A stretch of DNA of 64,000 nt from NCBI GenBank assembly GCA_025435555.1, contig JAIWWG010000003.1, positions 62,001 through 126,000 of the forward strand, written 5' to 3'. The position numbers and the translations under genes are program-made. Position 1 is the first letter of the stretch, and every line of letters begins with the position of its first letter. The DNA comes from Chytriomyces cf. hyalinus JEL632. Its lineage: Eukaryota > Chytridiomycota > Chytridiomycetes > Chytridiales > Chytriomycetaceae. Below the pieces are notes generated by a model. That model saw only the letters and a list, made by a program, of their open reading frames with translations. It had not been told where the DNA came from and ran no database searches. Shown here one piece after another: positions 14,403-54,061 of the stretch.

Positions 14403-16293
14403 TCAATAAACAAACAAAACAAAAGAGAGAGGGTAAGATAATTTTCCACATACCCATGCGTCTAGACCATTTTCCACGGGCGCCTTGTCAGTCTTGGTGC
14501 AGCCCTCAAAGCTTCCGTTCTTTTCGTCAATAAAGTATTGGCAAAAGTCAACCAAGTCGGCGTCAGTTGGGACCTTGGCGTTTCTCAAGGTCAAGAGACG
14601 TGGATCCGCCAAACAGGGGACATTGCAAGAGTCTGGAACGGCGCACAACAGAACAGCTTTTGCCAGTTGCGCAGCATCGGAACAAGTTGACCAGTCGGCG
14701 GGCGTGGAGGTCTGGTGAAGAACAAGATTTCAGTGTTGAAACCCACAACAACAAAACGAAGATCAAGCCTTTGCGCACCGTTTGGCAGTAACCAAAGGCG
14801 CAAGTCTAATATAAGGTTGATGTTAGCAATGTACAATACAAATGGAGCGCTATTCCCAAACCTTGCCCTTGCCACATTGAGAATCCTCAGTGCAGGAACA
14901 GACTTTTCCGGCTCTGATAAATGGACGCGAAGCGTCAGCAGTGGAGCAGGAGCAGACAGAAGTAGATTTTTGCCCAAGGGTGCATTTGGGGATACATTGG
15001 CCAGTGTACTTTTTGCACACCTGAAAAAAAAAAACAAATCAACATCGTTTGTCAGACGATCCAGCAGTACAGCCGTACCTCAGATGCCGAACAGTCGCTG
15101 GATTCAGAACACGGACACATGGTGTTCGAAGGAATCACAGAGTCGTTAGTGTAGCACTTGCATGTTTCAGTCGACATAGCGCCTTTAGTGCAGCTTGGCA
15201 GACCCCCATTGTTACCGGCATTGTTTCCGCTGCTGGCATTTCCGCTGCTGGAGTTTTCAACGGGACCGTTTCCGCTGCTGGAGCCGCTTCCGCTGTTGGA
15301 GGTTTCAACGGGACCGTTTCCGCTGCTGGAGCCGCTTCCGCTGTTGGAGGTTTCAACGGGACCGTTTCCGCTGCTGGAGCCGCTTCCGCTGTTGGAGGTT
15401 TCAACGGGACCGTTTCCGCTGCTGGAGCCGCTTCCGCTGTTGGAGGTTTCAACGGGACCGTTTCCGCTGCTGGAGCCGCTTCCACTGTTGGAGGTTTCAA
15501 CGGGACCGTTTCCGCTGCTGGAGCCGCTTCCGCTGTTGGAGGTTTCAACGGGACCGTTTCCGCTGCTGGAGCCGCTTCCGCTGTTGGAGGTTTCAACGGG
15601 ACCGTTTCCGCTGCTGGAGCCGCTTCCACTGTTGGAGGTTTCAACGGGACCGTTTCCGCTGCTGGAGCCGCTGCTGGAGCCGCTTCCGGTTCCGCTGCTG
15701 GAACCGCTTCCCTCGGCAACGGAGCCAGCACCACCATCAGAACCGCCGGTGCCATCACAATACGTCCATGAAACACCGCCGAATCTGGGACACAACGATA
15801 ATTAGATCAAGTGCTTCTTACGATCAGAAGCCAACAAGAGAGGCAGACACGCACCTTCCGACATCGAGAGGTTGAAACTGCTGAAAGACAACGGGGGTCA
15901 CGTCCACATCGCCGAATGGGCATCCTGCGCACCGATCTTCAACGGTGGCTGAAAAAAAAATTGTTATCAGTTGACCAGGATATTGACAGACGAGGGAAAG
16001 GCAAACAAGCGCACCTCGGACAGTTCTGCCGTTGTGCGAGATGCAGATGACTCTCCCGCACATGCTTGGGTCGCGGTCGTACTCGACCTCGTTCTGGAGA
16101 GAGCAACGAACGCTGGGTTAGTCGCGATCGATCACTGATCTGGGTCCGCCGATCTTACCATGGCGGCGATGATGTCTCCGTTTTGCAGGGATCTGCCGCA
16201 TGAACCGTAGCCGCCATTTGGGTTGTAGAAGGTCATGTCTCCGGCGAGGGCAGTGCCAGCAGTGAAGGCGAGGAGCGACGTGAGAAGCAACAT
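14403..16293 (-). CDS. Secreted double-psi beta-barrel (RlpA/expansin-like) protein with Ser/Gly repeats and Cys-rich modules
   Basis: Multi-exon gene starting at 16293. The first exon (16159-16293) encodes a signal peptide (MLLLTSLLAFTAGTALA) and the start of a DPBB domain: MTFYNPNGGYGSCG, then MCGRVICISHNGRTV, the DRCAGC motif, DVDVTPVVFQQF and LDVGR. This is the RlpA-like/expansin-like fold found in secreted wall-modifying or effector-like fungal proteins. It is followed by about nine copies of a 16-residue Ser/Gly/Asn linker repeat. Then come two Cys-rich modules (CxxGAxSxxxCxCxxN…CxCxxxxDC), and a C-terminal region with about seven more Cys. No catalytic Asp can be assigned, so a binding role is as likely as hydrolysis. 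The Cys module is shared with the gene at 29473-32439. The last junction near 14450 is uncertain. Confidence 0.75.
15247..15672. repeat. 48-bp coding minisatellite, about nine copies
   Basis: A 48-bp unit recurs with exact spacing: the word tttcaacggga starts at 15255, 15303, 15351, 15399, 15447, 15495, 15543, 15591 and 15639. Copies are nearly identical, differing mainly by a G/A change in two of them. On the coding (minus) strand each unit encodes SSSGNGPVETSNSGSG. Shorter degenerate SSSG units follow on the N-terminal side. Confidence 0.95.
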
Positions 16294-49317: not shown

Positions 49318-49370
49318 AGGACGGTGCCAGAGGCGATGTTGTTCAATAAAATGGCGTAAAACCGTATTTA

Positions 49371-49694
49371 CAGCTGATTTCACAATAAATGCCCCTCGAT
49401 TTTTTTTTTCTTTATTTTCTGTCGCGTTTCTGTCGTGTTTCTGTCGCGTTCCTGTCGTGTTCCTGTCGCGTTTATGTCGCGCTGTTGTCGTGCTTTTGTC
49501 GCGTTTTATAGTGAATTTGTGCGACCAGAGTTCAACAGAGCGAGGGTTGAGCGGCGCTGCTCGCGGAAACCCCAGACTGCTGACCCTATCAGTCAGAGCG
49601 TGCCTGCTGCTCTTATCATTCTTGGTGCATGCAAGTGATTACATGTTCCCAATTTGTGCCCAATTTGCGACAACGCTTCATCAGTGATTCTTTC
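49371..49694 (+). repeat. Left terminal inverted repeat (324 bp)
   Basis: It runs from CAGCTGATTTCAC to gtgattctttc and matches the reverse complement of 52970-53293, including the same 10-T run at 49400-49409. Between about 49433 and 49508 it contains a run of degenerate 9-10 bp units of the type TGTCGYGTT, a subterminal array. The inner end is 17 bp upstream of the transposase ATG. Confidence 0.93.
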
Positions 49695-49711
49695 GATACT
49701 ATCTTCACAGT

Positions 49712-50882
49712 ATGACTTACAGTCAAGAGATCCGAGCTCTTGTAAGACTGCATGCGTGTGAGGGCAAGAGCGTGGAGTTCAGCAGCAAGACTCTTAAGAT
49801 CCACAAACGAACTGTCATGCGAATGCGCAAGTGCTGGGAGGACTACGGGACTCTTTTCAATCCGTTAGCATGTCACAATGGAGCTCCACGCTCCATAGAC
49901 ATTGCGCATCGAAGTGTCAGTGCATCGTAATGCATCAATCAAGACGGATTTTAACAGGTTCAATCTCAGGTTTTGCAAGCGCTTGTGCGCTCACGCGCAG
50001 ACTGGTATTTGCAAGAGCTACAAGAAGAGATGTCATTTGCGCTTGGCAGATCAATCTCACTTTCGACTGTCTGGAGGGCATTAGATCGTGAAGGAATCAC
50101 ACATATGCAGGTTAGTTCTTAACTATGAACTCTGAAGTCGATCTCACAATGCTCATCCCTCACAGCTTTCTGTAAGAGCTCAAGAGAGGAATGAGCAGGA
50201 TCGAGCTGCCTTCCTCATCAGGATGGCCCAATTTCCTCGCGAGTACTTTGTCTTCACTGACGAAGCAGCAAATGATGACAAAACTCTGGAAAGACGTTAC
50301 GGCTGGGCACCACGTGGCTGCCGCGCGAGACATATTGCACCATTTATTCGAGGAACACGATACACAATTGAAGGATCCATTTCACTGTCACACGGACTTT
50401 TGGCATTTCAAATCTCTGAAGGACCAATGAACGGCGATGATTTCTGTGATTATGTGGAGAATGTTTTGGTAAGCACCTTTCTGTTGGGTTTTACAGTGTT
50501 AATCGTATGTGCGAAACAATCCATAAGATCCCAAGAATGGGGCGGTATCCAGGCCCAAATTCTATTCTTGTCCTTGACAACGCAGCCATTCATAAGCAAC
50601 CAAAATTGCGACTTATTTGCAGTAACGCAGGCATTTTACTTATTTTCTTGCCTCCCTACTCTCCCGATCTGACACCAGTAAGTACTGCTGCCTTCCTTGT
50701 ACTTTGAATGTAATCCTTCAAAAAAGATAGAGTCGGCATTTTTCCACATAAAGCAATGGCTGCGTCGAAATAAGGCCCATGTTCGCCGTCTACCTAATCG
50801 TGTCATGGGCTTGGTTGAGGCTTGTTCAAGCTTCACTCCCGAGCTTGCTGATTCATGTTTCAGATATGCTGGGTGGAGGTGA
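49712..50882 (+). CDS. Tc1/mariner-superfamily transposase, DD34E, intact
   Basis: Five exons (49712-49915, about 49970-50110, 50166-50468, 50528-50677, 50727-50882) give about 317 aa. An N-terminal helix-turn-helix region covers residues 1-68, followed by a second helical DNA-binding part with ALGRSISLSTVWRALDREG. The catalytic core has VFTDEAANDD with the first Asp, RRYGWAPRG, SILVLDNAAIH with the second Asp, and FLPPYSPDLTPIESAF with the final Glu, 34 residues after the second Asp. The fourth exon uses the acceptor ccataag; an earlier cag would leave a 28-nt intron and a stop. An alternative acceptor at 49957 adds four residues. All motifs are intact. Confidence 0.9.
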
Positions 50883-51142
50883 ATAAATTGTGGGTTGACT
50901 GGGCACAAAGCGAAAAATTTGAGTAAAAATTGACGTCAAAAAAATCGAGATCTGATACTTGCATTACTTCACGTGTATCTTCAACTGAAGAACGGTCTTG
51001 GCGTCGTATGATGGCATGCATGAATGAAAGATCACTGGAGTGGCAATGTGTGAAGAGAACTATTGTGCTATGCTGTTGATACTTGAAAATTTTCTTGAAA
51101 ATTTTGTTGTTGCACCGCAAAATTTTATGTTAAAAATGAGTT

Positions 51143-52956
51143 CTATTCAAGAGCTTGAACGGCAAACTGATCATCTGCCAAAAGTTTCTCCCAGTCAATA
51201 ACCGCGCCAGCCTCTCTGCACAAAATCTGAAGATGCGGTAAAGAAGGAAAGCATTCAGACAATTTGTCATCCTGGTGAACTTCAGCACCATCAACTGAAG
51301 CCTGAAAGACTCTGTCGCCTGGAAAGTTGACTGATTTCAGAAGGATAGCAACTGTTGAGATCGGACGAACTACGCGGTTTTGGAACACTTCCACAACTTT
51401 ATCTGACCGCGTTATGAAGGTGCAAGATGCAGTTTGAATGTGCAACGCTTGTGTAACAGGGGTAAATTTAGACGCCAAAGGCGAAGGGCCAGATGCAGCA
51501 GACAGAGCAGGCTGCAAGGAAGCGGAGATTTTTTTAGCGTTTTTCATGTCGAAGATATTAGCTACAGGCGGCTTGGATGGTGTGCAACCTGTGTCGTTGG
51601 CATGGTCCTGTAACGCAATCAAATTGTAAAACTTTTTTGATTGCAAATCAACCAAGACAGCTCACCATTATGGTCACCCATTGGCGAATGTGCTGTGCGG
51701 TTAATAAAAGGTGGAGATCTCCTTCGCGGTAGCATCCCTTTAAGTGCTCTTCATTCACATTGCAGGTTCCACAGTATAAGTCACGCAGCCGCTGCTCGGA
51801 ATCCGTCGAAACTTCACTTGATGGTCGTGATAGCACTTTAGACAACGTTCTCAAGGGTTTATCGGATCCCGTTGGCATCGCCAAATCTATTCACAGCGGT
51901 GAGCAAATGAAAAAATTTCAAGTCACATGTTTGCAATCACCGATTTGATTTGTGTAACAAAAAAAGCAGAATGTCTTGACATGCTTGTGGAGTAACTGCA
52001 GCACCACGTCTAAGTTTTCATCAGAGACAATGTCGTGCACTGGTTTTGTCTTGCTGGTCTTGTATCCCAGCTTGCCAGTTAGCGGTGCCCATTTTGCAGG
52101 TGCCTGTTTGTTGATGGCCCCAAGTATATCATAAATTGAGATTCCTGGCTTGCGGAAATCAAATGACATGGAAGCGGCTCCAATTTGGGGTTTCTTCTCA
52201 AATTCGTTTATACAGATCACCGACACTGAAGATACTGTGAGTCGACTGACAGCAATTTTGCTCATAATTTTTCCTTACAAACTGTAATCGGTTCCATCTT
52301 CATTTTGTTGGGTGCAGGTGTTGATACAGGCGTCACAAGCTCAGGGTCCGAATTCTCATCTGCCCCACCTTCGTCGTCAGAATCATCATCATCCAATGAA
52401 TCTTCCATCTCCACTGCACATAAAAAAATTTCAGCACCTTCACTTTGCACCAACAAATGGCAGACCTGTTTCAGAGAAGTCATCGTGATTTCCTTCTGTT
52501 ATCTTTTTCAGTTTTGGCACGTTTTGCCCTGTTTCGAAACTCTCAGTGAAATGGTACATACTGAGATAAACTGACACTCACTGGTTGCTGATCTCATGGG
52601 TGTGATACCATTCAATTTAGCCACTGCCAGCCTTGCTCGATCGACCTTTCTCCTCTCCGCATTGGATAGAGAGATACTGTCTCCCACCTTCAGTGGCAAC
52701 GGACCAAACCCACTCCACATGTTATCCTTCGCGTAATCCACAAGCCACTCATTGGTCAGCTTAAGTGGCAAAGCGATGGCTTTGTTTTTGGTGCGTGGTG
52801 AGTCGGCTGGACACTGGCAACCACGATTGACTTTCTAAACACAACCAACTATGTGAGAACACTGTAGATTTATAAATAAAGAGCATGCGTTACCTTCTTG
52901 CAGTTGAAGCATATGCCTGTGACCAGGCATGCATGCAAAGGAGCTGGCTTCCCCAT
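51143..52956 (-). CDS. Second gene of the transposon: 476-aa protein of unknown function
   Basis: Six exons (52894-52956, 52582-52834, 52279-52413, 51941-52234, 51666-51886, 51143-51607) sum to 1431 nt, and all phases agree. The N-terminus has a compact Cys cluster (CLVTGICFNCKK, then GCQC), possibly zinc-binding. It is followed by a basic segment, a WSGFGPLPLKVGD stretch, an acidic run (DSLDDDDSDDEGG) and a mid-region containing SIYDILGAINKQAPAKWAPL. A further Cys pair (LYCGTCNV) lies in exon 5. The last exon carries ISTVAILLKSVNFPGDRVFQ. I recognise no family; it could be an accessory transposition protein, a regulator or captured host cargo. The start is 13 bp inside the right TIR's inner end. 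Confidence 0.7.
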
Positions 52957-52969
52957 CGTCTCACTGTTT

Positions 52970-53293
52970 GAAAGAATCACTGATGAAGCGTTGTCGCAAA
53001 TTGGGCACAAATTGGGAACATGTAATCACTTGCATGCACCAAGAATGATAAGAGCAGCAGGCACGCTCTGACTGATAGGGTCAGCAGTCTGGGGTTTCCG
53101 CGAGCAGCGCCGCTCAACCCTCGCTCTGTTGAACTCTGGTCGCACAAATTCACTATAAAACGCGACAAAAGCACGACAACAGCGCGACATAAACGCGACA
53201 GGAACACGACAGGAACGCGACAGAAACACGACAGAAACGCGACAGAAAATAAAGAAAAAAAAAATCGAGGGGCATTTATTGTGAAATCAGCTG
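52970..53293 (-). repeat. Right terminal inverted repeat (324 bp)
   Basis: Inverted copy of 49371-49694, of the same length and with no difference found by eye. The outer end lies 12 bp before the MMACHC start codon, and the inner end 13 bp upstream of the accessory gene's ATG. Confidence 0.93.
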
Positions 53294-53305
53294 TAAAATA
53301 TACGC

Positions 53306-54061
53306 ATGGAAACAGCGAGAGCCATTGAACAGCAGCTGGCCAAGTACGGCCTGGACATTTGCATAGCCTTCCGCAGTGAATTCTACAACGAACAAGTAGC
53401 CACGCCCGGCGGCCATCCACTCCTGCCAACTCTGGACGCAGGTCCAACCCTGTCACTCCTGATCGCCAACACACAAACACTCTGGGACCATTTCACTGCC
53501 CATCTCAAGCATGACCCTTCCCGACTGAACGCAAAGAACCCACTCGACGAATACGTCCGCAACAGCATCGAAGCCTCGCTCCAAACCGTGCTCGGCAGCA
53601 ACAACTCGCCCCAACGAAGCGTCCGGTTCGCGTTCGAATTTGGCGACAAGTTTGTGGCGTTTCAGCGGCTAGGTCATGTGACCGGAGAGGCGTTCTACAA
53701 TAGCAGTTGCTTCATCTCTTCTCACCCACAAGTGGGTCCGTGGCAGGCTTTCCGGGCAGTGGCAACAATACTTGTATCTGCTGCGGATGTGCCCAACGAG
53801 TTTGATGAACTCGGTGATCCGCATCCAGGTGGTGCCGACAGGGTGGCAGAGTGTATGCGGCAGTACTTTGATGTTGTGAAGCTGGCTGGGGGACCAAGAG
53901 AAAGTGGGCCGAAGGAAATCTACAGATACTTGGTGGCGGCAAGGGACGCTGCCACTCGCCCGGATCAAATGCAGTACAGGTACTCGGAAGAGCAGATTGA
54001 ATACCACTACACAAAGAATAGAAGTGTGTTGAGAAGATGCGTTGAACAAGACGTTAAATAA
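53306..54061 (+). CDS. MMACHC: MMACHC-like cobalamin-processing protein (CblC)
   Basis: Single exon of 251 aa. It aligns in order with human MMACHC: FRSEFYNEQV, DAGPTLSLLIANTQTLWDHF, NPLDEYVRNSIEASLQ, HVTGEAFYNSS, ISSHPQVGPWQAFRAVATIL and YSEEQIEYHYTKNR near the end. MMACHC binds cytosolic cobalamin and removes its upper ligand, delivering B12 to methionine synthase and methylmalonyl-CoA mutase. This implies B12 use, which most Dikarya lack. The start codon lies 12 bp after the transposon end, so its 5' UTR and promoter probably now include the TIR. Confidence 0.82.
   Translation: METARAIEQQLAKYGLDICIAFRSEFYNEQVATPGGHPLLPTLDAGPTLSLLIANTQTLWDHFTAHLKHDPSRLNAKNPLDEYVRNSIEASLQTVLGSNNSPQRSVRFAFEFGDKFVAFQRLGHVTGEAFYNSSCFISSHPQVGPWQAFRAVATILVSAADVPNEFDELGDPHPGGADRVAECMRQYFDVVKLAGGPRESGPKEIYRYLVAARDAATRPDQMQYRYSEEQIEYHYTKNRSVLRRCVEQDVK

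Follow-up and report, generated by a model that had tools for sequence, protein, structure and literature searches.

Elements of the IS630/Tc1/mariner (ITm) superfamily are known for needing one protein. Here we analysed an ITm element with two genes, which occupies positions 49371..53293 (+ strand) of a 64,000-nucleotide stretch (the window) of the genome of Chytriomyces cf. hyalinus JEL632 (GenBank assembly GCA_025435555.1, contig JAIWWG010000003.1, positions 62,001 to 126,000). Like IS630 and other IS630-Tc1-mariner elements, this focal element has a DD34E catalytic triad, a DDE_3 domain, a TA duplication and terminal inverted repeats (TIRs), whereas a second conserved gene (gene 2), introns, a 324-bp array-bearing TIR and TTAA targets are its own. 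In our estimate, the chances are about even that it is an autonomous, recently mobile cut-and-paste ITm transposon, IS630-like by profile, in which gene 2 encodes what is most likely a DNA-binding transposition accessory factor.

Several known systems share parts of this design. Multi-gene ITm elements with long TIRs occur in ciliates, where the TIRs of Tec measure about 700 bp (PMC7325037). Tec and TBE elements resemble the focal element in their DD34E transposase and in having several open reading frames (ORFs), but they are confined to ciliates and have three ORFs, Tec with a site-specific recombinase and TBE with a zinc-finger protein; a Pfam search with gene 2 gave nothing up to E 10 that would relate it to one or the other. 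Very long TIRs are also reported for some insect pogo elements (PMC7386202). The fungal ITm elements Tc1-MP1 from Mucorales (DD34E, 1,688 bp, one protein of 434 amino acids) and Tc1-OP1 from a yeast (5,659 bp, one protein of 1,155 amino acids) are reported to encode one protein each (PMC9977792), in contrast to two in the focal element. Among the literature matches listed, titles and the first lines of abstracts mention no fungal ITm element with two genes. PIF/Harbinger and other PHIS elements do carry a second gene beside the transposase gene (PMC4482050), but their transposase is a different one and their second gene is of the Myb/SANT or YqaJ type, neither of which was matched in gene 2 using Pfam. 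CACTA (En/Spm) elements follow a two-protein design as well, in which one protein binds DNA at subterminal repeats whose sequences diverge from family to family (PMC2613891). They differ from the focal element, with its CAGCTG ends and TA duplication, in having another transposase, CACTA ends and a 3-bp duplication.

The focal element and its copies

The focal element is 3,923 bp long, an extent that is supported by the eight copies in the genome, whose ends are identical. Its termini read CAGCTG and are flanked by TA on either side. The right TA (53294..53295) was placed by flank comparison, the left one (49369..49370), which stands in a TTAA context, by flank comparison together with paralogous empty sites of two other copies. 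The left TIR (49371..49694, + strand) and the right TIR (52970..53293, - strand) are 324 bp long and 100% identical, with zero mismatches; an inverted-repeat search returns 328 bp instead, because the TTTA...TAAA flanks are symmetric too. An earlier note on this DNA had described a 3.9-kb element with TA duplications, CAGCTG ends and 324-bp mismatch-free TIRs, all of which was borne out.

When the 37.8-Mb genome (242 contigs) was searched with the TIR, as the same note had proposed, 16 matches were obtained, which form 8 pairs. They belong to eight full-length interiors, each of which carries both genes. Compared with the window copy over 3,923 bp, five of the seven other copies are identical, one has 1 difference and one has 2. 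Only two positions vary across all eight copies: one is silent and lies within the transposase gene, the other changes L112 of gene 2 to P in two copies, provided that the uncertain exon 3 is real. Every copy has a perfect TIR pair, flanks of its own and TA on both sides (8/8). Assembly duplication as the source of the eight copies was ruled out, since the flanks differ from copy to copy. Judged from these sequences, the near-identity of the copies and their perfect TIR pairs point to a young family whose latest activity was probably very recent, in agreement with the very recent insertion claimed before. Beyond the right end of the window copy, a 251-amino-acid ORF (53306-54061) starts with its ATG after 12 bases; it has a weak, sub-cut-off match to MMACHC (E 1.5e-4), and the insertion may disturb its promoter.

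The transposase gene (49712-50882, + strand) encodes 317 amino acids in five predicted exons, separated by four GT-AG introns of 49-59 nt. The boundary of exon 1 (49712..49915) was taken from a comparison with locus L017, and intron 1 was placed by comparison with a 73%-identical relative. The other exons follow from predicted splicing: exon 2 (49970..50110), exon 3 (50166..50468) with D147, exon 4 (50528..50677) with D233 and exon 5 (50727..50882) with E268 and the stop codon. These three residues were mapped as the catalytic triad, and the 34 residues between the last two give the DD34E signature.

Pfam DDE_3 matched the protein at E 2.1e-26. The NCBIfam IS630 model NF033545 reached 157.8 bits against a cut-off of 100 (E 4.2e-46); the library is built for prokaryotes and holds no rival Tc1 model, and by this profile the element would be IS630-like. 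Matches to solved structures were marginal (SETMAR, E 0.011; Sleeping Beauty, E 0.39), and every match to HTH_33, HTH_32, HTH_23, HTH_Tnp_Tc3_2 and HTH_Tnp_IS630 fell under the curated cut-off. Four pattern matches in viral contigs yielded no confirmed relative of the transposase. By its DDE_3 domain, DD34E spacing and TA duplication, the element belongs to the ITm superfamily. The intact spliced DD34E transposase of the first reading of the window was recovered, with all five predicted exons and the complete triad in place.

Gene 2 and its association with the transposase

Gene 2 (52956-51143, - strand) is convergent to the transposase gene, with a stop-to-stop gap of 260 bp, and its seven predicted exons encode 497 amino acids; the second convergent gene noticed earlier was thus recovered. 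Predicted splicing places a CxxC in exon 1 (52894..52956), a CxC in exon 2 (52582..52834) and an acidic stretch in exon 4 (52279..52413). Exon 3 (52466..52528) is the least certain, the frame being kept without it as well, and exon 5 spans 51941..52234. Exon 6 (51666..51886), which contains the GCYREGDLHLLL motif, is conserved in L017 and was aligned to group B (see below), and exon 7 (51143..51607) is conserved in L017 and L018. Overall, the protein has a Cys-rich N-terminus, an acidic stretch and a conserved GC(F/Y)-H-L-W stretch. Proteins with a similar G-C-(F/Y)-H-L-W-A stretch presumably are common in basidiomycete genomes, which would widen the lineage greatly.

The transposase gave at least 156 matches in the genome, counted per exon. 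We examined 34 loci (L016-L047, L050 and L051), which were selected by similarity, not at random, and several of which are of one lineage. They contain 36 transposase copies; the seven other focal-family copies are outside these counts. For 31 of the 36 copies, gene 2 was matched on the other strand, 3' of the transposase. Thirteen of the 34 loci also served as training for the gene 2 profiles and are therefore not independent tests of the co-occurrence. Among the 5 copies without gene 2, four are defective: L019 is fragmentary, in L020 and L021 the D233 region is without a match, and L035 carries G and E at the two catalytic D positions. The fifth (L050:1429-2367) is an intact, intronless ITm transposase of 313 amino acids (24% identity), for which none of the gene 2 profiles found a match within the 4 kb examined; it may represent an element with a single gene or else a domesticated gene.

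The distinct two-gene lineage suggested by the earlier note is thus supported within this genome by the 31 of 36 copies, and related elements that regularly lack the second gene, which were to speak against it, were for the most part not seen. The one intact copy without gene 2 is the distant L050. Since most of the sampled relatives in the genome carry gene 2, it probably takes part in the movement of these elements.

Gene 2 sequences were arranged in group A (the focal element, L017 and L018), group B (L024, L030, L027, L034 and kin), group C (L040 and kin), group D (L042 and L045, plus L046 by profile) and group E (L043, L044, the inner element of L026 and kin). Using hhalign, groups A and B matched at E 9.1e-5 (lowest of 20 shuffles 0.13) and groups D and E at E 1.1e-13 (lowest of 20 shuffles 0.088); none of the 20 column shuffles per group pair went below 1e-3, and the lowest for any pair was 0.0051. 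The groups agree with the splits of the transposase tree, which separates C plus D/E from A plus B (0.996) and has further splits that isolate B (0.978) and D/E (0.999); this unrooted tree of elements from this genome contains 24 of 25 rows, some of them intron-read, L039 having been dropped for short coverage. None of the gene 2 groups exceeded a Pfam cut-off (the best match was that of L042 to Fib_alpha, E 0.0015, 19.1 versus 29.9 bits), and 141 pattern matches in viral contigs yielded no confirmed group B relative.

Some of the loci are composite. In L026, a two-gene element of group B (L026:2044-7995) carries one of group E, also with two genes, inside its terminal repeat (L026:5294-7946). 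The gene 2 frames of two different elements (L047:2420-2833 and L051:2591-3127) open with one common unrelated stretch, and a further stretch downstream (L047:3287-3601 and L051:3582-3896) is common to both loci, as if another repeat had entered each.

The ratio of nonsynonymous to synonymous substitutions (dN/dS, Nei-Gojobori) is below 1 for gene 2. For exon 7 of the focal gene it is 0.35 versus L018 and 0.30 versus L017, and for transposase exon 3 it is 0.06 versus L018, ratios that are rough because dS exceeds 1. The remaining gene 2 pairs gave 0.22, 0.59, 0.57, 0.34 and 0.29 (no value was obtained for L024-L030), and the remaining transposase pairs 0.45 and 0.17. In the A and E pairs compared, gene 2 evolves faster than the transposase, whereas in a near-identical group C pair its ratio is the lower one (0.22 versus 0.45, few changes).

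These data bear on whether gene 2 has a role at all. Gene capture by transposons occurs, and gene 2 might be a passenger, that is, a captured host gene without a function in transposition. L050, with an intact transposase and no gene 2, would fit such an origin, and so would a group B gene 2 relic (L017:5514-5999) that lies beside a group A element with no transposase match adjoining it, the fetched stretch ending there. However, when the genome was searched with the focal gene 2 protein (E up to 1, a reach that excludes the more distant gene 2 groups), all 59 matches came from the eight copies and from two relatives of the element, at C205:203 kb and C41:69 kb. In this search, gene 2 of the focal type was seen only in elements and did not turn up as the ordinary host gene that the earlier note had considered. 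In addition, gene 2 keeps the same convergent place in diverged elements, is homologous between A and B and between D and E, and has a dN/dS below 1. We disfavour the passenger explanation and regard it as very improbable.

Target sites and terminal arrays

Insertions of groups A and B show a common target. Where both ends could be read, TTA precedes and TAA follows the element in 19 of 19 cases, which comprise the eight focal copies, L017, L022-L027, L030, L031, L034 and a 470-bp stretch of L018. The ends of L028 and L033 were unreadable, L032, L035, L038 and the second L041 copy are outside the count, and L029 has TTG at the sole end matched. Group C insertions have TA without TTAA in 3 of 3 cases read (L039, L040 and L041). 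For the nested group E element, comparison of L026 with L023 yielded an exact empty site that demonstrates duplication of TA, here without TTAA. The tip pattern CAGCTGATTTCA is common to elements of groups A, B and C.

Searching the genome with the joined flanks of the focal copies revealed paralogous empty sites for 2 of the 8. That of the C36 copy lies on C178 (94%), and that of the C90 copy lies on C12 (81% along the joined stretch). Each has TTAA at the junction but mismatches immediately to the right of it, so that the two sites support, rather than prove, a TA duplication in TTAA. In L048, the empty paralogue of the C36 insertion, about nine bases differ to the right of the junction and the next 99 are identical. 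A piggyBac-like duplication of all 4 bp of TTAA was ruled out, since the element is bordered by TTA on one side and by TAA on the other.

Within the left TIR, 8.3 units of an 11-bp tandem repeat (TTTCTGTCGCG) form an array at 49416..49506 (+ strand), which was reached by 0 of 200 shuffles; a tandem-repeat scan located the array of the right TIR at 53158..53248 (- strand). Terminal stretches of 300-455 bp were then compared across 11 elements (12 stretches, 200 shuffles each). A period of exactly 11 came out best in the focal element, in L027 and L034, and in both views of the L018 stretch, and was reached by 0 of 200 shuffles in each case. The units differ by lineage (TGTCG in the focal element, TGTCC in L018 and GATACTGGTCA in L027), and those of the focal element contain CpG. 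Together with the TTAA target of groups A and B, the 11-bp arrays go beyond what the earlier note had described.

The L018 stretch (L018:676-1145) consists of 470 bp between CAGCAGATTTCATATAAAATG repeats, has TTA/TAA flanks and 11-bp arrays but no detected gene, and is located within tandemly repeated DNA. It looks like a short non-autonomous relative, although its membership with the L018 transposase is not established.

Possible roles of gene 2

If gene 2 serves transposition, the element might work as follows. The transposase would recognise the conserved tip (CAGCTGATTTC), cut at TA and reinsert the element, while the gene 2 protein would act as an element-encoded accessory factor, most likely a DNA-binding one. 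Where a lineage has 11-bp arrays, the protein would attach to them along one helix face: B-DNA makes one turn per about 10.5 bp, so that an 11-bp array would align bound proteins in this way. From there it could help to pair the two element ends, the part ascribed to TNPA in CACTA elements. By analogy, TNPA would be the nearest working model, and VANC of the Arabidopsis VANDAL elements the main rival one.

Several observations weigh against an array-binding accessory factor. The focal gene 2 protein had no Pfam match at E 10 and so no recognised domain. Its single-sequence models were poor, with a mean predicted local distance difference test (pLDDT) score of 48 for exon 5 and 36 for the other model, and Foldseek returned 0 matches at E 0.001 for the exon 5 model. 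The A-B profile match had a probability of only 59%, or 48% in another comparison, and A/B, C and D/E were not linked by hhalign (E 0.28 or worse). L050 is an intact transposase with no gene 2 match. Regarding the arrays, that of L034 is barely above its shuffles (22 versus a maximum of 21), and period 11 is borderline in L017 (4 of 200 shuffles). No array beyond chance was found in L023, L030, L040, L042, L043 or L044, where gene 2 is present (the end of L042 was guessed). Array binding can therefore not be the role of gene 2 everywhere.

The presence of gene 2 where arrays were undetected would be explained if its protein worked through protein contacts only, for instance in nuclear import, dimerisation or stabilisation of the transposase, and did not bind DNA. 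The weak exon 5 model suggests the order strand-strand-helix-helix-strand, which might suit a small protein-contact domain. However, with a pLDDT of 48 and no fold match this model is a poor guide, and the Cys-rich N-terminus would suit DNA binding. We consider a role through protein contacts unlikely.

Alternatively, gene 2 could encode an anti-silencing factor like VANC, which would bind family-specific arrays and remove silencing marks, outside the cut-and-paste reaction. VANC targets are described as tandem repeats of short, rapidly diverging motifs (PMC10398659). In our elements, the 11-bp period stays constant while the array sequence changes between lineages, the A and E pairs compared show quicker change in gene 2 than in the transposase, and the focal array units contain CpG. 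But several gene 2 lineages have no detected array, and the lower gene 2 ratio of the near-identical group C pair, with its few changes, points the other way. We give a VANC-like function a low probability, and cut-and-paste by the transposase, with the gene 2 protein as accessory factor, is what we infer.

The gene content of the host is consistent with a zoosporic, early-diverging fungus, for which it gives indirect support: chitin synthase 1 had 18 matches in the genome and radial spoke 3 matched in one place, while tektin was not found there. Elsewhere in the window, a 48-bp tandem repeat is present in 9 copies (15240-15672, 98%).

A more far-reaching proposal is that an IS630-like clade of zoosporic fungi forms an obligate two-component system, in which a TTAA-targeting transposase is paired with a fast-evolving, novel-domain partner that reads co-evolving 11-bp arrays. 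We put it forward tentatively, as a possibility that we hold to be somewhat doubtful. If true, a CACTA-type design would have been reached independently in a superfamily best known for one-protein sufficiency. Members of the gene 2 groups, which lack confident Pfam matches, may pass for host genes in the annotation of fungal genomes. A diverse ITm clade that keeps a second protein raises the question of what this protein adds, and with eight near-identical, apparently intact copies, sister lineages with and without detected arrays, and the intact transposase of L050 without gene 2, this question is a testable one.

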